From: an uncultured Arenicella sp.
Lineage (GTDB): Bacteria; Pseudomonadota; Gammaproteobacteria; Arenicellales; Arenicellaceae
Reading direction: 5' to 3'
Assembly: GCA_938045295.1 (NCBI GenBank)
Contig: CALINO010000023.1
Location: 1 to 48,034, forward strand
DNA length: 48,034 bases
Shown here: one piece after another, positions 7,615 to 17,506 of the stretch
How the letters are laid out: each line of letters begins with the position of its first letter
How positions within the stretch are numbered: position 1 is the stretch's first letter
Made by a program: the position numbers and the translations under genes
Notes under the pieces: generated by a model
Seen by the model: only the letters and a program-made list of their open reading frames with translations
Told to the model about the DNA's origin: nothing
Database searches by the model: none

Positions 7615-8775
7615 ATGAAAATTTTAATTTTAGGTGGTGATGGATTTTGTGGTTGGCCAAGTGCGCTTTATTTGTCAGAAAAAGGGCACGAAGTTCATAT
7701 CGTAGACAATCTATCTCGTAGAAATATTGATAATGAGTTAGAGGCTGATTCATTAACGCCTATATCTCCCATCGGAGTTAGGCTGCAAGCCTGGCAAGAA
7801 GTGTCAGGTAATAAAATAGAATTTACTAATCTAGATGTTGCTGAAGATTATGAAGAGTTGAGGCAGCTCTTGAGTGATTGGAGTCCTGATTCGGTTGTGC
7901 ATTTCGCTGAACAGCGTGCGGCACCTTATTCGATGAAGAGTGCTAAGCATAAGCGCTATACTGTTGATAATAATATTAGAGCGACACATAACCTCACTGC
8001 TGCGATTGTTGAGAATAACCAAGATACGCATGTTGTGCACTTAGGTACTATGGGTGTTTATGGATATGGTACTGCTGGAATGAAGATACCAGAAGGGTAT
8101 TTGTCAATAAAGGTGGCTACTGATGAAGGAACGCTCATTGATCAAGAGGTTCTTTATCCAGTGAATCCAGGTAGCGTCTATCATATGACTAAGACCTTGG
8201 ATCAGTTGATCTTTGCTTACTATGTTAAGAATGATCAGCTTCGTGTAACTGATTTACATCAGGGGATTGTTTGGGGAACTCAGACTGAACAAACTAAGAA
8301 AGACGAACGATTGATTAATAGATTTGACTATGATGGCGATTATGGGACTGTTTTGAATCGGTTTCTAATGCAAGCTGCTGTTGATTATCCTCTTACTGTT
8401 CATGGTACTGGCGGTCAGACTAGAGCGTTTATACATATATCAGATACGGTTAAATGTATTGAGCTTGCTGTCAATAATCCTCCAAGCAAAGGGGAACGAG
8501 CGCAGATTTTCAATCAAGTAACTGAGACTCATCGAGTGCGTGATTTGGCGGCTAAAATACAGGCGATGACGGGTGCTGAGATAGAAAATTTGGAAAATCC
8601 TCGTAATGAAGATGCAGAAAATGATCTGCATGTGAAAAATGACCAATTTCTAGAGTTGGGATTAAATCCAACTACATTAGATGAGGGCTTGCTTGAGGAA
8701 GTTCAAGAGATTGCTTCAAAGTATAAAAACCGCTGTGACTTGAGTAAAATTCCTTGCGTTTCTAAATGGAAGTAA
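7615..8775 (+). CDS. UDP-sulfoquinovose synthase-like enzyme (SQD1/SqdB/Agl3 family)
   Basis: Family enzymes convert UDP-glucose and sulfite to UDP-sulfoquinovose, a sulfonated sugar donor, through an NAD-dependent 4-keto intermediate. The 386-aa protein begins with the Rossmann motif GGDGFCGWP and has the family signature segments [31 protein letters not shown] and GTVLNRF. The catalytic set of plant SQD1 is kept: Thr145 in GTMG, Tyr189 and Lys193 in YHMTK. These matches run along the whole length, so the family call is strong; the reaction is inferred from it. In plants and cyanobacteria the product goes to sulfolipid, but here the gene heads a glycan assembly and export run, so the sugar may go into a polysaccharide, as in archaeal glycans made with Agl3. 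It is divergent from the aminotransferase. Confidence 0.85.
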
Positions 8776-8883
8776 TTTTCAACTGGTTGTTTGTTGAAAA
8801 TGTCTTTGTGCAGCAGTAATTTATTGTTTTTTGCTATAAATTAACATGTGTTTTACCTGAAAGAGCGTGTTAGGAGTTTTAGT

Positions 8884-9810
8884 GTGGATAAGGTTCTAGT
8901 GACCGGTGGATCTGGGTTTGTAGGCTCAAATTTAGTTAAGAGGCTCCATGAAAATGGGGCTTCTGTTCGTGTGTTGGATAATATGAGTCGTGGCCGCCTT
9001 TCGTATATATCTAGCTTGAGTGACGTTGAGGTTGTTGAGGCTGATATAAGAGATACTGAAAGTTGTAGAGATGCTTTTTCTGGCATAAGTCATGTAGTTC
9101 ATCTTGCTGCGTATGGTTCAGTTGTAGAGTCTATTGTAGACCCAAGAACAAATTTTGAAATGAATGTGCTTGGCACATTTAATGTTTTGAATTTGTGTGT
9201 CGAAAGTAATGTTGAAAAAGTGGTTTTTTCTTCAACTGGTGGAGCATTGATTGGAAATGCTCAACCTCCTGTAAATGAAGCTTCGTTGCCCAAACCTATC
9301 TCACCTTATGGAGCTGGCAAGCTGTGCTGTGAAGCCTATTGTCACGCATATTCCAAATCATTTGATTTGAATACAGTTTGTCTTAGGTTCGCTAATGTAT
9401 ACGGGCCTAATAGTTATCATAAAACCGGGGTTATAAATAAATTTTTTCACGCTGTAAAAGATAATGAACCATTTTTGATTTATGGTGATGGGTCATCATC
9501 AAGAGACTATATTCATGTTTCTGACCTGGTTCGTGGAATTGAGCTGGCCTTGAATAATAATTCGGTAAGTAATGATGTGCTTCATTTGGCAGCAGGTCGA
9601 GAAGTTTCTCTAAGTGAGCTTGCTGGTGTTGTGCGCAGTGCTGCGGGTAAGCCGGAGCATCCAATTGAATATTTGGCAGCTAGAAAAGGTGAAGTTGATA
9701 GGAATTTTGCCGATTACAAATATGCAAAACAAGTGTTAGGCTTTGAACCCTCGGTGAGTCTAGAACAAGGGATTCAAGATTTGTGGGATAATTATGACTG
9801 GAAAAAATGA
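8884..9810 (+). CDS. NAD-dependent nucleotide-sugar epimerase/dehydratase
   Basis: Extended short-chain dehydrogenase acting on a nucleotide sugar, most like UDP-glucose or UDP-GlcNAc 4-epimerases. The Rossmann motif TGGSGFVG is at the very N-terminus; the catalytic triad is seen as SSTGG and YGAGK. Later motifs are LRFANVYGP and DGSSSRDYIHV, typical of GalE-like enzymes. I place the start at the GTG at 8884 because AGGAG lies at 8872-8876 with 7 bases of spacing and the protein then begins VDKVLVTGG, normal for the family; a further in-frame GTG at 8848 has no such site. The length is 308 aa. It overlaps the next gene by 17 bases, indicating translational coupling. The substrate is not determinable. 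Confidence 0.88.
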   Translation: MDKVLVTGGSGFVGSNLVKRLHENGASVRVLDNMSRGRLSYISSLSDVEVVEADIRDTESCRDAFSGISHVVHLAAYGSVVESIVDPRTNFEMNVLGTFNVLNLCVESNVEKVVFSSTGGALIGNAQPPVNEASLPKPISPYGAGKLCCEAYCHAYSKSFDLNTVCLRFANVYGPNSYHKTGVINKFFHAVKDNEPFLIYGDGSSSRDYIHVSDLVRGIELALNNNSVSNDVLHLAAGREVSLSELAGVVRSAAGKPEHPIEYLAARKGEVDRNFADYKYAKQVLGFEPSVSLEQGIQDLWDNYDWKK

Positions 9811-12076
9811 TTCGCCGTTTATTCACCCTAGAACGCGAAGTGATGTTTTTGGGGCTGCTATATCCAGCCGTAAGTTTCCAGCTTTAAAGGAGGTTGTAGG
9901 ATCAAACTCTCCAAAATTTAAGCCATTAAGGATTTGTATTTTAACTCAAGACTTTGTGGGGCCTGTGAAAAATGGGGGTATAGGCACAGCTTATACTTAT
10001 GCTGCTCGTTCTTTGGCGAGTGCTGGCCATGAGGTTACAGTTTTATATACGATTAACAGTTGTGTAGACAAGACGCTTGGTTACTGGAGTGACTATTATC
10101 GTGAGTTAGGTATAAATTTTGTGGCATCTGGTGAGCCTGAGGTTTCTATTCAAAAAGGGCCTACTGCCGGAGGTATGCACACTCCTTATCGAGCATATGA
10201 ATGGTTGAAGAAGCGAGATGGTGACTTTGATATAGTCCATGCCTCTGAGTGGTGTGCAAATGCTTATTTATGCCTGCAAGCTAAACAAACTGGTTTGCAC
10301 TTTCAAGGTACAAAATTCGTCATAAAATGTTCTAGCCCTACACTTTGGAATCACATTGGAAATGCGCAGCCTATTGCAGATATAAAGACATTAACCACTA
10401 TGTTTATGGAGCGGCGCTCGGTTGAGATGGCTGACTACGTGATTTGCGGAAGTCAATACCTTTTGAACTGGATGGAAGATCAAGGCTATGATCTTCCTGA
10501 AGGTGTAACCTATGTTCAGCCGAATATATTTCCAGTCGAAGATTTAGTTGCCCGAAAATTTAACCAATTAGATAACGTAAAAGAATTAGTATTCTTTGGG
10601 CGACTTGAACCCAGAAAAGGAATACACTTTTTTATAGATGCTCTTATTCAACTAAAAGCTAGAGGTGTATTTAACGAAAATGCCGATATACCTCAGATAA
10701 CTTTCTTGGGTAAGCCTAGAGCTGGGTTTAATTTTAAAAAACAGTTGGCAAGATTAGAGAGTCAATTAGAGATTAAAGCGACTGTACTGAGTGACAAGCA
10801 TCAGCAGGAAGCCTTAGCCTATCTTTCTGAAGAAGGTTCCGGAAGAGTGGCTGTAATGCCATCATTGATGGATAATAGTCCGTTTGGGGTTTATGAGTGT
10901 CTTTCTTTAGGTATCCCTTTTATTACAAGTGATGCTGGTGGCGGGCATGAGCTTATTTCAAGTGAAGATAAAGTCGATGTGCTATTTTCTCCAACCCCAT
11001 CATCTTTAAGTAGTTGCATTGAGAAAATTTTGACTAAAGGTTGCGTTGTTGCTACTCCCTCATTTGATTTTTCGCAAAATATAGCGGATTGGATGCAGTG
11101 GCACTTGTGGGCGGCAGATCAGGAGGGCTTACCACCAGTAGATGAAGTAGAAAACAAAAGCCCATTGGTAACGGTCTGTATGGCTCATCATAATCGAGGG
11201 CCATTGTTAAACAACGCTATTGAATCTATTCAAGCGCAAAGCTATGAAAATGTGGAAATAGTTATTGTTGATGATGGAAGTACTGATGATGCAGCTATTG
11301 CGATACTCGATGAAATTGAAAATCGACAGTATCGATTTCCAGTTAGGGTTGTTCGTCAAAGAAATAAATATTTAGGGGCTGTTCGGAATAAAGGTATATC
11401 TAAAGCTAACGGTGAATTCATTCTCTTTATGGATGATGACAATGAGGCTAAACCAAGTGAGATAGAAACTTTTGTTAGAGTGGCTAAATTTTCTAAAGCT
11501 GAAATAATGACATGTTGGTCAGATTCTTTTTCTTCTGAGCGCCCAATAGCAAGCAATGGTAATAATCGTCGTATTGTGTTTCACGGAGAAAATTTGGCGA
11601 TGGCCTTGGTTCGAAACCCTTATGGAGATAGTAATTGTTTTGCAAAAAAAGATGCCCTTCTAAAATTGGGAGGGTTCTCAGAGCACTATAAGGTAGGTCT
11701 GGATGATAGTGAGTTTTTTACTCGGGCGATCCTTTCTGGTATGAAGGTGCTTTTAGTTCCCGAGGCGTTATATTGGTATCGAATTAATGAAGTAAGAATG
11801 CGTCATAATCAATATAATTTGTATGCTGGGCGAGTTAGAATGTCTGACCCATATGTCCAAGGTTTGCACCCTGATCTTGCAAATGTTGTTCGTTATGCAC
11901 AAGGAATGGGGTTTATTCACGGGCCTTGGATAAAGAAAAAAGCCAAAAATGCTGATAATGTGGCTACCTCAGATGTCCGTCTTCCAAATAAGGTGGTTTC
12001 AATAGGTAGGAAACTAGTTAATCGATTTCCTAGCCTTTATCCGCTTGCCAGATATGTGTATGGTAAACTTCGCTAG
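9794..12076 (+). CDS. Two-domain glycosyltransferase (GT4 fused to GT2)
   Basis: The 760-aa protein appears to carry two glycosyltransferases in one chain. Residues about 45-430 are GT4/GT-B: NGGIGTAYTYAARSL near the N-terminus, FFGRLEPRKGIHFF in the donor domain, and the E..7..E region (FGVYECLSLGIPFITSDAGG). Residues about 455-700 are GT2/GT-A: TVCMAHHNRGPLLNNAI, IVIVDDGSTDD and the metal-binding DDD near residue 546 (FMDDDNE). A short basic tail follows. The ATG overlaps the upstream epimerase gene and is preceded by GGGA at 5 bases. Such a fusion would add two sugars in succession, presumably at the cytoplasmic face, to a lipid-linked glycan. Donors and linkages are unknown; sulfoquinovose is a candidate donor given the gene two places upstream. 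Confidence 0.88.
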   Translation: MTGKNDSPFIHPRTRSDVFGAAISSRKFPALKEVVGSNSPKFKPLRICILTQDFVGPVKNGGIGTAYTYAARSLASAGHEVTVLYTINSCVDKTLGYWSDYYRELGINFVASGEPEVSIQKGPTAGGMHTPYRAYEWLKKRDGDFDIVHASEWCANAYLCLQAKQTGLHFQGTKFVIKCSSPTLWNHIGNAQPIADIKTLTTMFMERRSVEMADYVICGSQYLLNWMEDQGYDLPEGVTYVQPNIFPVEDLVARKFNQLDNVKELVFFGRLEPRKGIHFFIDALIQLKARGVFNENADIPQITFLGKPRAGFNFKKQLARLESQLEIKATVLSDKHQQEALAYLSEEGSGRVAVMPSLMDNSPFGVYECLSLGIPFITSDAGGGHELISSEDKVDVLFSPTPSSLSSCIEKILTKGCVVATPSFDFSQNIADWMQWHLWAADQEGLPPVDEVENKSPLVTVCMAHHNRGPLLNNAIESIQAQSYENVEIVIVDDGSTDDAAIAILDEIENRQYRFPVRVVRQRNKYLGAVRNKGISKANGEFILFMDDDNEAKPSEIETFVRVAKFSKAEIMTCWSDSFSSERPIASNGNNRRIVFHGENLAMALVRNPYGDSNCFAKKDALLKLGGFSEHYKVGLDDSEFFTRAILSGMKVLLVPEALYWYRINEVRMRHNQYNLYAGRVRMSDPYVQGLHPDLANVVRYAQGMGFIHGPWIKKKAKNADNVATSDVRLPNKVVSIGRKLVNRFPSLYPLARYVYGKLR

Positions 12077-12129: not shown

Positions 12130-13329
12130 ATGCTTATTGTGCTTTCAATGCACCGTTCAGGGTCATCCCTGTTGGCTGGGATACTACATGATAATGGGTA
12201 TAGTGCTGGTGGTGACTCTAGTCTGATTTCAGGGGATGAACATAATAAAACAGGATATTTTGAAAGGAGAGATGTAGTAGATTTTAACGAATCATTGTTG
12301 AAATCTGAACCATTTAGTAGTTCCTTACCAAATACAAAGGCAACATTACAAGCTAACTCTTTACAAAAAAAAAAAATAAATGAGTTATGTAGAGGGTTGA
12401 AAAAAGACCAAGTACGGGTATTAAAAGACCCTCGTTTCTGTTTAACACTCCCTATTTGGTCTCCATTTTTAGAAGATATAAAGGTCGTTTTTTTATATCG
12501 TCATCCGTTAGATGTTGCTGAATCGTATGTTCGCCGACAGAGATATCCTTTTAATGGGGCTTTAGCTCTTTGGGAATATTATAATATTCAAGGGCTCAAC
12601 GGATCGAATGTTTGCAAGCGTTCTGTTTTATTTTTTGATGACTTGATCTCCAACCCCTTAAAGGAAGTAAAAAGACTGAATCAAGAATTAGATTTAGGTA
12701 TTGATGATAAAAATATAAACATTTCAATGGCAGACAAGTCTCTTGTACATGGGGCCGAGACTAGTCGTGAGCTTACAAGCTTAACAATGTCTCAATTGAC
12801 GTTATTTGAACGTCTGTCGAAAAATGATATAAACGGTAAAATTGATTTTTCTGAAAGCCTTATTTCATCTTTGAGTATTTTAACTGATTTCGCAGAAAAA
12901 GGTTTTGATGCCGGTACCGGCAAAATGGTCGATGCAACTACAAGCGAAAAGATGAAGGCCATGACAGAGCGAAATACATCCTTAAGAAAGCAAGTTCGAC
13001 ATTTAGAGCGTGTAACATCTCGTAAAACCGATGAATTAGATATCAGTATTCAGCAGTTAGGAATTCAAAAAGAGAAATTGTGTGAACAAAGCTCAATGTT
13101 GTTATCTAGAGAAAGCCAGCTTCTTGAATGTGAAGAAAATATCGTTGACCTAAAGAAAGAATTGGGGTTAATAGCAAGCCTTTACAACACAGTTTGTGAT
13201 TCTATTTTTGGCCAACTTGTTGTAAGGGGGGTGAAAATAATTGCAGTGTTTCGGCCAAGAGCTCCTCTTGGCCGACTTTTTCAAAAGCTAAACTCGATTA
13301 ATGCCAGCCCCGAAAAAACGGATGAATAA
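12130..13329 (+). CDS. PAPS-dependent sulfotransferase-family protein with coiled-coil tail
   Basis: Likely transfers sulfate from PAPS to a hydroxyl of the glycan in the cytoplasm. The 5'-phosphosulfate loop is at the extreme N-terminus (SMHRSGSSLLAGIL, residues 6-19), followed by KTGYFERRDVVDFNE. The 3'-phosphate site is LYRHPLDVAESY (about 122-133), with Arg124 and Ser132 at the usual eight-residue spacing. The catalytic domain ends near residue 265. Residues about 272-350 are rich in Glu, Lys, Leu and Gln with heptad-like spacing and look coiled-coil; a basic, hydrophobic tail follows (about 362-390), which might touch the membrane. The tail is unusual and may tether the enzyme to the other assembly proteins. 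The gene begins 53 bases after the GT4-GT2 gene; its end overlaps the next gene. Confidence 0.82.
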   Translation: MLIVLSMHRSGSSLLAGILHDNGYSAGGDSSLISGDEHNKTGYFERRDVVDFNESLLKSEPFSSSLPNTKATLQANSLQKKKINELCRGLKKDQVRVLKDPRFCLTLPIWSPFLEDIKVVFLYRHPLDVAESYVRRQRYPFNGALALWEYYNIQGLNGSNVCKRSVLFFDDLISNPLKEVKRLNQELDLGIDDKNINISMADKSLVHGAETSRELTSLTMSQLTLFERLSKNDINGKIDFSESLISSLSILTDFAEKGFDAGTGKMVDATTSEKMKAMTERNTSLRKQVRHLERVTSRKTDELDISIQQLGIQKEKLCEQSSMLLSRESQLLECEENIVDLKKELGLIASLYNTVCDSIFGQLVVRGVKIIAVFRPRAPLGRLFQKLNSINASPEKTDE

Positions 13330-14434
13330 AAGTAAAACAAGAGTTCTTGTTATTATCACTTCCTCTGATCGGGCTGGCGCGCAGAAGCATGTCGAATATT
13401 TAATGGCTGGCCCTCAAACTCAGTGTGCAGACTTCCACGTAGTAACTGGGGGGGAGGGCTATCTTACTGAAAAATGCAAAGAGTTTGATGTGCCTTTCAG
13501 TATTGTAGAGAACTTGATAAGAAAGGTTTCATTTTGGACAGATATAAAAGCTCTTAAGAGTATTTATAAATTAATTCAACTAGTAGAGCCTGATTTAATC
13601 CATGTGCACTCTGCAAAAGCTGGAACATTGGGTCGAATTGCGGGTCGAATTGCGAAAAAACCAGTTGTTTATACAGTGCATGGGTGGGCTTTTTCTGAGG
13701 GGAATTCATTTATTAAGCGCTCATTTTCATTGTTAATGGAAAGAGTGTTGTCGAGGTTGACTGCCAGCTACATCTTGGTGTCACAATACGATTGTGACCT
13801 TGGTATAAAAAAAAGAATTTTAAAGCAAGACACTAATTTTTCAGTGATACATAACGGAATTCCCAATGTTGCTCTAAATATGAAGGGATGGAGTTCTTCC
13901 TCTCCTGTTGAGTTGATAACAGTTACTCGATTTGCTAAGCAGAAGAATGTTAAATGCATGGTTAAAGCATTAAGTCTCTTAAATGGAGATGTTTCAATGC
14001 GCATTCTTGGTTATGGCCCTCTGGAAAAAGATATAAAAAAAGAGGTGTCTCGCTTAAATCTCGAGAATGTAGTGACCTTTCGCGGAGAAATAACTGATGT
14101 TACTAAGGATTTGAATGATAGTGATGTTTTCGTCTTAAGTTCCGATTGGGAGGGGCTTCCAATTGCTTTGATTGAGGCTGCTAGAGCCGGGCTGCCGATG
14201 GTTGCCACAAGAGTTGGAGGAGTCCCTGAAATTGTATCTCATGATGAGAATGGACTGCTTGTCGAACGAGGAGACTATCAAGGATTGGCAAACGCTATTC
14301 AAAAATTAATAGATAATCCAGTTATTCGAAAAAAACAGTCATTGGCTTCAAGAGGTGCCTTTGAAAAAAAATTTAATGCAGAAGTGATGTCTTCGAAAAC
14401 GATGAATGTATATAAGAAAACACTTGGAGCCTAA
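13322..14434 (+). CDS. GT4 family glycosyltransferase
   Basis: Retaining GT-B glycosyltransferase of the GT4 family, expected to add one sugar during assembly of the surface glycan. The acceptor domain shows GAQKHVEYLM and DLIHVHSAKAGTLGRIAG; the donor domain shows TVTRFAKQKN, LGYGPLEKDI and the E..7..E motif region EGLPIALIEAARAGLPMVA followed by GGVPEIV. The frame opens at an ATG at 13301, but I prefer the ATG at 13322, which starts MNKSKTRVLVIITSSD and overlaps the upstream sulfotransferase by 8 bases. Neither has a strong ribosome binding site, so translation is probably coupled. Length from here is 370 aa, normal for GT4. The sugar added is unknown. Confidence 0.87.
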   Translation: MNKSKTRVLVIITSSDRAGAQKHVEYLMAGPQTQCADFHVVTGGEGYLTEKCKEFDVPFSIVENLIRKVSFWTDIKALKSIYKLIQLVEPDLIHVHSAKAGTLGRIAGRIAKKPVVYTVHGWAFSEGNSFIKRSFSLLMERVLSRLTASYILVSQYDCDLGIKKRILKQDTNFSVIHNGIPNVALNMKGWSSSSPVELITVTRFAKQKNVKCMVKALSLLNGDVSMRILGYGPLEKDIKKEVSRLNLENVVTFRGEITDVTKDLNDSDVFVLSSDWEGLPIALIEAARAGLPMVATRVGGVPEIVSHDENGLLVERGDYQGLANAIQKLIDNPVIRKKQSLASRGAFEKKFNAEVMSSKTMNVYKKTLGA

Positions 14435-14450
14435 TAATGAGGATGTTTTG

Positions 14451-15248
14451 GTGACACACTATACTTTCATGCGCGGTGGCATTCGCGACCTGTTGTTAAG
14501 TGTCAAATTATGGCGTTACTGGTTATTCAAGTCATACTTGAGTTTTAGATTGTCTGTTAGTGGTACAAAGCTTGGCTTTTTATGGCCTAACCTATCATTA
14601 ATCTTGGTTGTTGCAGTTCTTGGGACCATTTGGGGAGTTGTTCTGAAAAATAGTTTAGGTATTCATTATTATCTATTTTTGCTGTGTGGCTACCCATTTT
14701 GGCAGCTAATTTCAAGTACTGTAAATAAATCGGCCAAAGGATTTTCTCAAATGGGAGCTGATGGTGCTCTTCCGATCTCTTATGTGCTTTTTGAAAAGAT
14801 CGCTAATTCAGCAATGTCTTTAATTGTGGTCACGCCGTTATTGTTTTTTGGAGTTTTTTTTATTTCACAAAACGCATTTTCTCATCTTGTTTTCTTTCCG
14901 TTAGCACTGATTTCAATTTTTTGTTGGTGTGTCGGTATATCGCTTATAACAGCAGTTACCGTTACGCTTTTGCCCGATATTAGGCATTTGATTTCTGCAC
15001 TAATGAGGCTGTCTTTTTTAGCAACACCTATTATCTGGGAGCCTACTCGGCTTGGCAGTTACATGGACTTCTTATGGTTTAATCCATTCTTTGCGCCACT
15101 TGAAATGATAAGGTACTCTTTGTCTGGAATACTTTATTTAGAGAGTGTTCGTTGGGTCGCGCCCATATACTCAATGTTGGTATTGGTTGTCGGAGTGCTG
15201 GCTTTTGTTTTCGGTTTCAATAAGGTGCGTTACAGAGCGGCAGCATGA
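14451..15248 (+). CDS. ABC-2 type polysaccharide export permease (Wzm/KpsM-like)
   Basis: Membrane half of an ABC exporter that moves a lipid-linked glycan across the inner membrane. About six hydrophobic segments are visible, preceded by the amphipathic stretch LLLSVKLWRYWLFKSYLS and the RLSVSGTKLGFLWP element common in these permeases. The start is taken as the GTG at 14451, which has AGGA at 14440-14443 with 7-base spacing and lies 16 bases after the upstream stop; an in-frame ATG at 14406 lies inside the previous gene without such a site. The protein is then 265 aa, as usual for Wzm. The stop overlaps the ATPase start (ATGA at 15245-15248), so the two halves are translationally coupled. 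Confidence 0.9.
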   Translation: MTHYTFMRGGIRDLLLSVKLWRYWLFKSYLSFRLSVSGTKLGFLWPNLSLILVVAVLGTIWGVVLKNSLGIHYYLFLLCGYPFWQLISSTVNKSAKGFSQMGADGALPISYVLFEKIANSAMSLIVVTPLLFFGVFFISQNAFSHLVFFPLALISIFCWCVGISLITAVTVTLLPDIRHLISALMRLSFLATPIIWEPTRLGSYMDFLWFNPFFAPLEMIRYSLSGILYLESVRWVAPIYSMLVLVVGVLAFVFGFNKVRYRAAA

Positions 15249-16636
15249 CTCCATCTAAAATTAAAGTAGAAAATGCCAGTGTCACATACAAGGTTGCGGA
15301 GCAAGGGAAGTTTGGATCAACGGGTAAAGCTGATTTTCACAGTATTCATGCCCTGAAGAATATTAGCTTTGAATTAACCTCTGGAGACAGGCTTGGCATC
15401 ATCGGAAAAAATGGTAGTGGAAAATCTACCTTGCTTAAAATGCTGGCTGGCGCTATTCCTCCTACAAATGGACGAATAAGCTCGCAAGGCGAGATGCTAG
15501 TTCTGCTTAATCGTAGGTCTGGAACAATGGGTAAAGCAATGCTCGAGGAAAATGCTTTATTAAAAGCGTATAGTCTTCAGCTTGTAGGAGATGAAGCCAG
15601 CTCATTTGTCGAAAACTGTTTGAAGGAAGCTGGCATGCAAGGCAGAAGGAAAGACCCTCTAAATAGTCTCTCTGCCGGAATGTCTGGTAGGTTCAATTTG
15701 GCCTTAAACTCTCAAATTGTAAAACCAATAGTGATTGTAGACGAGTGGATTGGTGCGCTTGATAATTATCAATCTAAGTCTGGTGGGGTGTTAAATCGAA
15801 TACAACTTGAGTCTCAAATACTGGTTATTGCAACCCATGATGAAAAGTTGCTTCGTAAATTGTGTAATAAAGTCATTTTATTAAATGATGGAGAAGTTGA
15901 TTATTTTGGTTTAGATTTTGATAAGGCTTTTAATTTAATGGATTCTGTGTCGAATGAGCCACTTGCGTTGGCTGGTGACAGTATTGATAACGAAGCTAAA
16001 GACATATTTCGCTTAAGGGTGATGAATTTAGGGCGTACTTCCATGCCCTATCTTAGCTCCCAGCTTCCGATAGAAGTTCAAAATGGTCTTGGTGTAAAGT
16101 TTCATGGATTAAACCATCGAATAAAATGGCTAAACCAGTCGTGGAGGGTGCTTATTGTATACCGAGATCCAATACGGCGATTCATTAGTGCATTTAATGA
16201 GCGCAAACGCCAAATAATGCTGTCTTCAAAGAACGCTAGTGCAGACGAGGTTGCATTATTTGACCGGTATAAAACAGTTAATGATCTTGCCGAAGCATTG
16301 GGTTTCGAAGAAAAAGAGAGTCAATATCAAGCTTCTCGAGCCATGATGGTTCTTAGGTTAGTAAGGCAAGATTTAAGTTGGTATTTTGCTGGAGTTGATT
16401 TGAGCGCCATTAGCGATTGCTCAAACAATTGGCTTTTTTGTAATTTCGATGACCGTCAAAGACTGTCAAGAATAATGAAAGTTGAACTGGGATTGTCTAG
16501 GCGTGAAGACTACACTGACCCAGATGAGTTTGATCTTACAAATATTGAGCTTACAAGTTGTGCGAAAAGTAATTTAGTTGCTTGGTTTTCAAAGGATTTT
16601 GAAATCATTTCGCATTTAGATAAATTGCATCAATGA
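15245..16636 (+). CDS. ABC exporter ATPase (Wzt-like) fused to a sulfotransferase-like domain
   Basis: N-terminal ABC ATPase for glycan export: Walker A GKNGSGKS (54-61), signature LSAGMSGR (142-149), Walker B IVIVDE (162-167), and H-loop His198. The nucleotide-binding domain ends near residue 235. Canonical Wzt proteins then carry a beta-sandwich glycan-binding domain. Here residues about 250-463 instead look like a sulfotransferase: VYRDPIRRFISAF (305-317) matches the 3'-phosphate PAPS motif with Arg307 and Ser315 eight apart, preceded by a HxxxxxL-type helix as in Sulfotransfer_2 proteins. A candidate 5' loop, NLGRTSMPYL (261-270), has Asn261 where the family usually has a Lys, so activity may be reduced or lost. 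No frame change or stop is seen between the domains; this is one continuous reading frame. Domain assignment of the C-terminus is inference from motifs. Confidence 0.82.
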   Translation: MTPSKIKVENASVTYKVAEQGKFGSTGKADFHSIHALKNISFELTSGDRLGIIGKNGSGKSTLLKMLAGAIPPTNGRISSQGEMLVLLNRRSGTMGKAMLEENALLKAYSLQLVGDEASSFVENCLKEAGMQGRRKDPLNSLSAGMSGRFNLALNSQIVKPIVIVDEWIGALDNYQSKSGGVLNRIQLESQILVIATHDEKLLRKLCNKVILLNDGEVDYFGLDFDKAFNLMDSVSNEPLALAGDSIDNEAKDIFRLRVMNLGRTSMPYLSSQLPIEVQNGLGVKFHGLNHRIKWLNQSWRVLIVYRDPIRRFISAFNERKRQIMLSSKNASADEVALFDRYKTVNDLAEALGFEEKESQYQASRAMMVLRLVRQDLSWYFAGVDLSAISDCSNNWLFCNFDDRQRLSRIMKVELGLSRREDYTDPDEFDLTNIELTSCAKSNLVAWFSKDFEIISHLDKLHQ

Positions 16637-16806: not shown

Positions 16807-16873
16807 GTTGTAGTTGGAGGGGGCATTAAATATATTTTCAAAGTTAATACTTTTTGTAAACGGAGGTTTCAAA

Positions 16874-17506
16874 ATGAAGGGTCTTTTTTTGCTAGTTAGT
16901 CGTGTTTTTTTTGTTTTCACTTTATGCTTTTTTTTCATTGGCAGTAGCGCGTACGGTCAAGCGCTCTCTGATATAACATCAGACATAGAACAGTATGGGG
17001 TGGTGATTCCTGGGATCGCCTGTAAAACTAGAACCAATAATGAGGCGACAGTGAGAAATTTAGCTCATGGTGTTTGGAATCGAGATTCAAGTGCCCCAGT
17101 GGCATTAAACTGCGGTTGGCCTGCGCCCATGCCTTGGGTCTCTAACCGGTTTGGAGGGTCTAGAATTTCAGGTGAAATATATGCGCGCTTTGTTCGTACT
17201 GCGAATACTCCTATAGCCGTGGCAAATGAAACTGTTTGTAATGTTAGTGTAAGCAATGGAACCGATTCAGCTCAAAACCCGAGTACCAATGGGGTTTTGT
17301 TAGGCACATTTCAGCCTATATTTTCAGGTGCTGTGTCTCAAAATGAAAACCAATTTAGTTCCTTTTCTACCGAATTGATAAATTACCCAACTAATTTTAA
17401 TGTCGAAAACTTTATGTCCGCATTTTGTCTTCTACCTAGAGGGGTTAGGTTGCAAATTATAGTGTTAAATCCTACGGAGGTCACAAGCTTTTCCCCTGCG
17501 CCTTAA
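16874..17506 (+). CDS. Unrecognised secreted protein
   Basis: I do not recognise the family. From the ATG at 16874, which has GGAGG at 16862-16866 and 7-base spacing, the protein is 210 aa and begins with a clear signal peptide (MKGLFLLVSR, a long Phe-rich hydrophobic core, and a likely cut after SSAYGQA). The frame also opens at 16814, but that start would put 20 residues before the signal peptide and is less likely. The mature part of about 180 residues is Asn- and Ser-rich with four cysteines (Cys in GIACKT, LNCGWP, ETVCNV and SAFCLL), which suggests disulfides in the periplasm or outside. The tail is Pro-rich. It lies between the polysaccharide run and a membrane-anchored protein gene with which it may be co-transcribed. 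Confidence 0.7.
   Translation: MKGLFLLVSRVFFVFTLCFFFIGSSAYGQALSDITSDIEQYGVVIPGIACKTRTNNEATVRNLAHGVWNRDSSAPVALNCGWPAPMPWVSNRFGGSRISGEIYARFVRTANTPIAVANETVCNVSVSNGTDSAQNPSTNGVLLGTFQPIFSGAVSQNENQFSSFSTELINYPTNFNVENFMSAFCLLPRGVRLQIIVLNPTEVTSFSPAP

Follow-up and report, generated by a model that had tools for sequence, protein, structure and literature searches.

An ABC glycan-exporter ATPase fused to an altered Sulfotransfer_2-type domain in an uncultured Arenicella sp.: a possible link between sulfation and export

The gene at positions 15245-16636 encodes the predicted ATPase of an ABC glycan exporter, joined in one frame to an altered Sulfotransfer_2-type domain. It lies in what we call the window, that is, the whole stretch of 48,034 nucleotides (contig CALINO010000023.1) that was analysed. 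The fusion, the homology of its second half to sulfotransferases, the changed residues and the surrounding operon are read directly from the sequence. On these we build the following proposal: the ATPase would act with the Wzm-like permease encoded at 14406-15248, its C-terminus would have gained the Sulfotransfer_2-type domain through gene fusion, and this domain, most likely no longer an efficient transferase, would link sulfation of the chain to its export. We put this reading forward tentatively, giving it somewhat less than an even chance. The features on which the argument draws are these:

7615-8775, plus strand: sugar-nucleotide enzyme related to UDP-sulfoquinovose synthase; at 343 bits it is well under the family cut-off of 575, so its substrate may differ
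8848-9810, plus strand: epimerase/dehydratase-like protein (named by eye), with a relative in the syntenic locus of a congener (3.9e-119)
9794-12076, plus strand: two-module glycosyltransferase, group 1 and family 2 (Pfam)
12130-13329, plus strand: Sulfotransfer_3 protein (29.4 bits, cut-off 27), candidate sulfate-adding enzyme
13301-14434, plus strand: glycosyltransferase, group 1, GT4 type (Pfam)
14406-15248, plus strand: permease partner, Wzm-like (galactan Wzm model NF050109, 2.1e-10, 40.6 bits, cut-off 380)
15245-15940, plus strand: ABC ATPase half (residues 1 to about 232) of the Wzt/KpsT type, lacking a carbohydrate-binding domain; it has Walker A, signature, Walker B and H-loop
15941-16003, plus strand: linker of about 20 residues, about residues 233-253
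16004-16636, plus strand: altered Sulfotransfer_2-type domain of about 210 residues, about residues 254-463
16025-16045, plus strand: NLGRTSM, residues 261-267, in the place of the 5′-phosphosulfate loop HxGKxxG; His, Lys and the second Gly are replaced by Asn, Arg and Met
16157-16195, plus strand: VYRDPIRRFISAF, residues 305-317, intact 3′-phosphate motif with Arg307 and Ser315

The fusion gene and its operon

The frame of the fusion gene runs on the plus strand from ATG to stop without interruption over 463 codons, and its start overlaps the 3′ end of the permease gene. Pfam ABC_tran covers residues 37-168 (E 8.8e-21 for the protein), the motifs GKNGSGKST, SAGMSGR, VDEWIG and THDE start at residues 54, 143, 165 and 197 and are intact, and the PADLOC matches of the protein fall on the ATPase part. 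The single open frame and the intact motifs bear out the original prediction that a complete ABC ATPase continues in frame into about 210 further residues. Could an assembly or sequencing error have joined two separate genes? The species is represented by one assembly, the closest ATPase (L002, from a congener) stops at 248 residues, and there is an in-frame ATG at 15938-15940 (Met232), immediately 5′ of the linker. However, just a weak AAGG lies upstream of this ATG and we see no convincing place at which the second half could start by itself, there is no frameshift or stop, G+C is flat across the junction, and the operon is uninterrupted, with the overlapping start already mentioned. We regard a joining error as highly improbable.

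The operon encodes a sulfotransferase besides the fusion protein. The Sulfotransfer_3 protein has canonical loops by eye and is the sole Sulfotransfer_3 match above the cut-off in the genome, one further match lying below it; an APS kinase is also present in the genome. Sulfated capsules whose clusters hold ABC-exporter, PAPS and sulfotransferase genes are described in portions of PMC11766843 and PMC11641403, so the setting of the window is ordinary; what is unusual is the fusion with its altered active site. Downstream, 3′ of the fusion gene, a 230-residue frame at 16814-17506 shows no Pfam match up to E 1.

Origin of the ATPase half

The best NCBIfam match of the ATPase half is the short Wzt/RfbE of galactan export (NF050108, 2.9e-28). 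Its tree neighbours are likewise ATPases of 248-257 residues, but at 98.7 bits, with the cut-off far above at 400, it is not an equivalog member, and it carries an extra domain. Among 61 genomes searched, the closest match besides itself is the congener's L002, a 248-residue ATPase with no extension. The window ATPase (P0001) pairs with L002 in both trees, with supports of 98/94 in the first and 99/97 in the second, and in the first tree the two are joined by further short ATPases, 248-257 residues long (98/96). In the second tree the clade uniting all short forms is poorly supported (39/27), and constraining P0001 to the 12 long forms makes the tree 20 log units worse and is rejected (p-AU 0.003). 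These figures concern two long branches, P0001 and L002, of which the tree program warns. Rows L003 and L026 stand outside the first tree, and L003, L024, L025 and L026 outside the second; L024 is a double ABC protein, not of the Wzt long-form kind.

The surroundings of L002 (L062) are syntenic with the window. They run in the order sugar transferase, DegT, UDP-sulfoquinovose-synthase-like protein, epimerase, one other gene, Wzm and short Wzt, with matches of 4e-164 for the sugar transferase and 8.9e-161 for DegT. The UDP-sulfoquinovose-synthase-like protein is common to the window and L062:9942-11102 (6.2e-245), and the permease also has its relative there (2.6e-23). A direct swap of a carbohydrate-binding domain for the sulfotransferase-like domain is rejected by the long-form constraint and by this synteny, the synteny being the firmer ground of the two. 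In the Pfam scan no match to Wzt_C (PF14524) is listed up to E 1 for the fusion protein. The same model is matched in four of the five long forms scanned (12 long forms are in the tree), in one case just under the cut-off; the long form L006 gave no Wzt_C match on the Pfam scan. The original prediction had the sulfotransferase-like domain standing in place of the Wzt glycan-binding domain, which has to be revised, as the nearest ATPases, including that of the syntenic congener, have no such domain. Since both the nearest and the syntenic ATPases are short and lack it, the domain was, judging from these comparisons, most likely added to a short ATPase at the present locus.

The resemblance to Wzt proteins with a carbohydrate-binding domain, as described in parts of PMC9445017 and PMC11231755 for E. 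coli O9a, Aquifex and Klebsiella O12, is one of layout: an accessory domain likewise follows the nucleotide-binding domain, and Wzm adjoins. In contrast with those proteins, the accessory domain of the window is sulfotransferase-like, has no Wzt_C match and is attached to an ATPase half that groups with short forms.

The sulfotransferase-like domain

With Pfam Sulfotransfer_2 (PF03567) the domain scores 15.7 bits (E 0.017) and does not reach the gathering score of 22. A profile built from 25 homologues, with the window left out, gives it 88.3 bits, and none of 1000 shuffles exceeds 12.9; the window was among the queries with which the homologues had been collected, and at least two homologues are pieces of broken copies. 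Comparison of 10 homologues with the domain by hhalign gave 98.6% (E 7.1e-16 for the pair), and in alignment A3 Sulfotransfer_2 is matched at E up to 0.1 in 9 of 12 rows, the window included, the best at 1.3e-8. The relation of the second half to sulfotransferases is beyond chance, and on the window-free profile the prediction of a sulfotransferase-like second half is upheld. A search of 369 genomes of the class with the domain by itself gave matches in three, its own genome among them. Its matches include two stand-alone genes with canonical loops by eye, L022 (30%, E 4.6e-10, 241 residues) and L023 (27%, E 9.8e-7, 258 residues). Compared with bacterial stand-alone members of Sulfotransfer_2 such as L022 and L029, the domain shares the 3′-phosphate motif and the stretch 284-461, but it falls below the gathering score, its 5′-loop is changed and it is fused to an ATPase.

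A plasmid search with the domain returned 23 records at E up to 1, with a sulfotransferase family 2 annotation in one of the 20 matches listed; an Ensifer plasmid match (L030) had E 0.3. No close relatives of the domain, of L022 or of L027 were found in viral contigs. Pattern scans yielded 12 stretches in the first (4 with a frame of more than 120 residues holding the motif), 6 in the second (one, L079, chance-like) and none in the third, all of them distant.

Structure prediction gave poor models: pLDDT 31 for the whole fusion protein modelled alone, and pLDDT 47 with pTM 0.43 for the domain together with five distant viral sulfotransferase rows, the latter of alpha/beta character. A Foldseek search with this weak domain model gave no match at E 0.001 or below; a sulfotransferase heads its list at E 1.0. 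Among the VIA rows the top seven are all heparan 3-O-sulfotransferases (Z 5.2-4.3, rmsd 5.8-7.8), and many G-protein chains come further down at similar Z. The sulfotransferase homology, the lack of a listed Wzt_C match and the alpha/beta character of the weak model all speak against a beta-sandwich.

Residue columns were taken from an alignment of 26 sequences, the window and its 25 homologues. The window keeps R307, P309, R312, S315 and F317, which are constant in all 23 homologues with letters there, and Ala363, constant in 25 of 25. Arg307 and Ser315 are the Arg and Ser, eight apart, that had been read as the PAPS 3′-phosphate motif, and this reading stands. At 261, 264 and 267, on the other hand, 22 of 22 homologues with letters there have His, Lys and Gly, where the window has Asn, Arg and Met, and at column 372 all 25 homologues have His and the window Leu. 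The original prediction placed Asn261 at the lysine position. The multiple alignments put it in the His column and Arg264 in the Lys column, and on this alignment we reject Asn261 as the lysine equivalent. For the loop 261-267 the register is given solely by these multiple alignments; the local profile alignments span residues 284-461 and, starting at 284, do not reach it. Its absence from them would fit a degenerate loop, and we are less sure of the exact register. We take the columns of the 261-267 loop and of 307-317 to be the binders of the 5′-phosphosulfate and the 3′-phosphate, respectively, as in sulfotransferases generally. No glycan-binding residue was identified in the domain.

Does the altered domain still transfer sulfate? 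It could be an active sulfotransferase, anchored to the exporter and adding sulfate to the chain during loading, with Arg264 replacing the catalytic Lys. The intact 3′-phosphate motif is in keeping with such an enzyme, His287 and His291 could act as base, and PAPS supply is possible, given the APS kinase in the genome. The operon's Sulfotransfer_3 protein has Arg at the Lys position too (HRSGSS, by eye), so some activity of the altered domain may be conceived; from this comparison Arg seems able to serve there in other sulfotransferases, and the loop need not be dead. Nevertheless, the residues at columns 261, 264, 267 and 372, which do not vary among the homologues, have all been replaced at once, and the operon already encodes a sulfotransferase of its own. 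We consider a tethered active enzyme, the chief competing reading, rather unlikely. The changed 5′-loop and the lost His tilt the balance, as far as residues can tell, towards reading or recruitment, and the domain would most likely have ceased to transfer sulfate efficiently, being either non-catalytic or weakly catalytic.

Related loci and the coupling of sulfation to export

The fusion is known from one genome and one sequence. Profile searches of 21, 398, 109, 1 and 295 genomes (overlapping sets) found no second one, and at the 25 loci with strong domain homologues the domain is joined to an ABC ATPase in none. Among the loci scanned for both parts, the frame of the window alone holds an ABC ATPase and a sulfotransferase domain. 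The Sulfotransfer_2 search took in 109 genomes from the order and 369 from the class (overlapping sets); for the 20 listed matches in frames of at least 400 residues, none of the 25 frames read there has an ABC match, and among 84 frames of at least 400 residues in the loci there is one ABC match, in a frame (L168) distinct from the sulfotransferase gene next to it. The Pfam Sulfotransfer_2 runs miss the window's own domain, so that equally divergent fusions may escape them, for which the profile searches compensate in part. A scan of named genome contigs returned three loci, each matching the ATPase half only. Nor does an ABC-sulfotransferase fusion appear in the titles and abstract openings of the mostly open-access literature searched. 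The original remark that no described exporter with this fusion was known agrees with the genomes and the titles and abstract openings searched.

In L113 a stand-alone relative of the fused domain directly follows Wzm, Wzt and a Sulfotransfer_3 relative. Such a Sulfotransfer_3 relative is found in 6 of the 25 homologue loci (L113, L114, L115, L154, L164 and L032) and in none of the other 19; in L114 it shares an open frame with the domain homologue. Three Wzm queries found nothing in 24 of the 25 loci (stretches of 3-31 kb; L116 with an annotated ABC permease), which, like the 19 loci with no Sulfotransfer_3 relative, counts against the reading that we favour. In L116, from Phaeobacter, an ABC ATPase (230-residue frame) and the annotated permease occur within about 11 kb. 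ABC-like frames, not necessarily of glycan exporters, were seen in L115, L152, L156, L157 and L161, and those of L115 sit among annotated amino-acid transporter genes.

The separate gene beside the exporter in L113, the changed active-site columns and the presence of the fusion in a single genome would all suit a structural or regulatory leftover of a neighbouring-gene fusion, in which an inactive domain does no more than stabilise the ATPase dimer or sense PAP(S). Yet about 210 codons have stayed open at about 30% identity or less to relatives, with the 3′-phosphate motif kept, which speaks for long selection, and we think a leftover unlikely.

Several further arrangements were met in these searches. 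On a Burkholderia arboris plasmid, Sulfotransfer_2-type and Sulfotransfer_3-type parts share one 831-residue open frame (L027:5947-8442, also L114:14947-17439); the Sulfotransfer_3-type part scores 19.5 bits, below the cut-off, the frame has a proline-free run of 281 residues, and its start codon is unsettled. A 509-residue frame (L129:631-2157) holds the same sulfotransferase subfamily after an apparent second sulfotransferase (by eye). In a congener, a 597-residue protein (L040:1093-2886) has Sulfotransfer_2 near its end at 17 bits, below the cut-off, and matches nothing else in Pfam at E 0.01. Two related sulfotransferase genes stand back to back beside a glyQ-like gene (by eye) in L061:7841-9628, one of them ending early at TAG, and the window's glycan and exporter queries had no match nearby.

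What might the operon's own sulfotransferase contribute? In Klebsiella and E. coli systems, the terminating enzyme is carried on a coiled-coil ruler and sometimes joined to glycosyltransferase modules (as outlined in parts of PMC11231755), and the cap is read by a domain at the end of Wzt (PMC11231755 and PMC9445017, in part). In the papers cited here, what marks a chain as finished for the exporter is a methyl, methyl-phosphate or Kdo end, which a beta-sandwich domain reads. Words beginning with "sulf" are absent from the main text of PMC11231755. Like the terminators WbdD, WbbB and Klebsiella O7 ORF6 described in sections of that paper, the Sulfotransfer_3 protein of the window carries a transferase at its N-terminus and behind it a long tail free of proline; unlike theirs, its transferase is a sulfotransferase, its termination of chains by sulfate is something we infer, and its coiled coil is putative. 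Using absence of proline as a proxy for coiled coil, the tail shows a run of 199 residues (177-375) after the transferase domain, and the longest runs in seven other window proteins are 51-125. The tail may thus resemble, by analogy, the coiled-coil ruler of known chain terminators, but the heptad test did not confirm it (3.24 against a shuffle maximum of 4.0, the gyrA control passing at 4.17 against 3.92).

The four short Wzm/Wzt loci of congeners (L109-L112) all encode a large protein that includes a part related to this Sulfotransfer_3 protein, less than 1 kb from Wzt in three and about 7 kb off in one. Pfam Sulfotransfer_3 is above the cut-off in L111 and L112 and is not listed at E 0.001 in L109 and L110. 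Like the known terminators joined to glycosyltransferases, these proteins add glycosyltransferase modules, family 2 in all four and also group 1 in L109-L111. In L110 a Sulfotransfer_2 gene (32.1 bits) lies directly upstream of Wzm. The proteins of 1178-1364 residues encoded less than 1 kb from short Wzt genes at L109:2381-6355, L110:5590-9126 and L111:4371-8462 combine the Sulfotransfer_3 relative, a proline-poor segment and two glycosyltransferase modules, and are candidate sulfate-terminating polymerases. Proline-free runs reach 327 residues in L110, 259 in L109 and 281 in the L027 frame, and a segment of 102 residues in L111 lacks both Pro and Gly, with 53% of its residues polar or charged; no unusual run was seen in L112, L028 or L064 (the last with masked residues). 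The heptad score exceeds all shuffles in the gyrA control, L111, L027 (inside the first sulfotransferase half) and, narrowly, L028, and does not do so in the window's Sulfotransfer_3 protein, L109, L110 or L112.

In the mechanism that we favour, sulfate would be added by the operon's Sulfotransfer_3 protein, which may also terminate the chain in the manner of the coiled-coil terminators of known systems. The fused domain would sit at the mouth of the exporter, where other Wzt proteins have their cap-reading domain, and there bind either the chain once sulfated or the enzyme that sulfates it, along with that enzyme's PAP(S), thereby coupling sulfation to export. That the nearest exporters have no cap-reading domain counts against this mechanism. 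A more specific version, in which a non-catalytic sulfotransferase-fold reader on the ATPase licenses export upon a chain-ending sulfate cap set by a ruler-bearing Sulfotransfer_3 protein, appears doubtful to us.

An exporter carrying a sulfotransferase-derived domain, together with a sulfotransferase in its operon, would extend chain-end recognition to sulfated glycans, and the fusion offers a small, testable protein with which to approach it. Beyond the single fusion, the loci of the congeners point to a pattern in the genus, in which the neighbours of exporter genes are proteins combining glycosyltransferases with a sulfotransferase-like part and a proline-poor segment.
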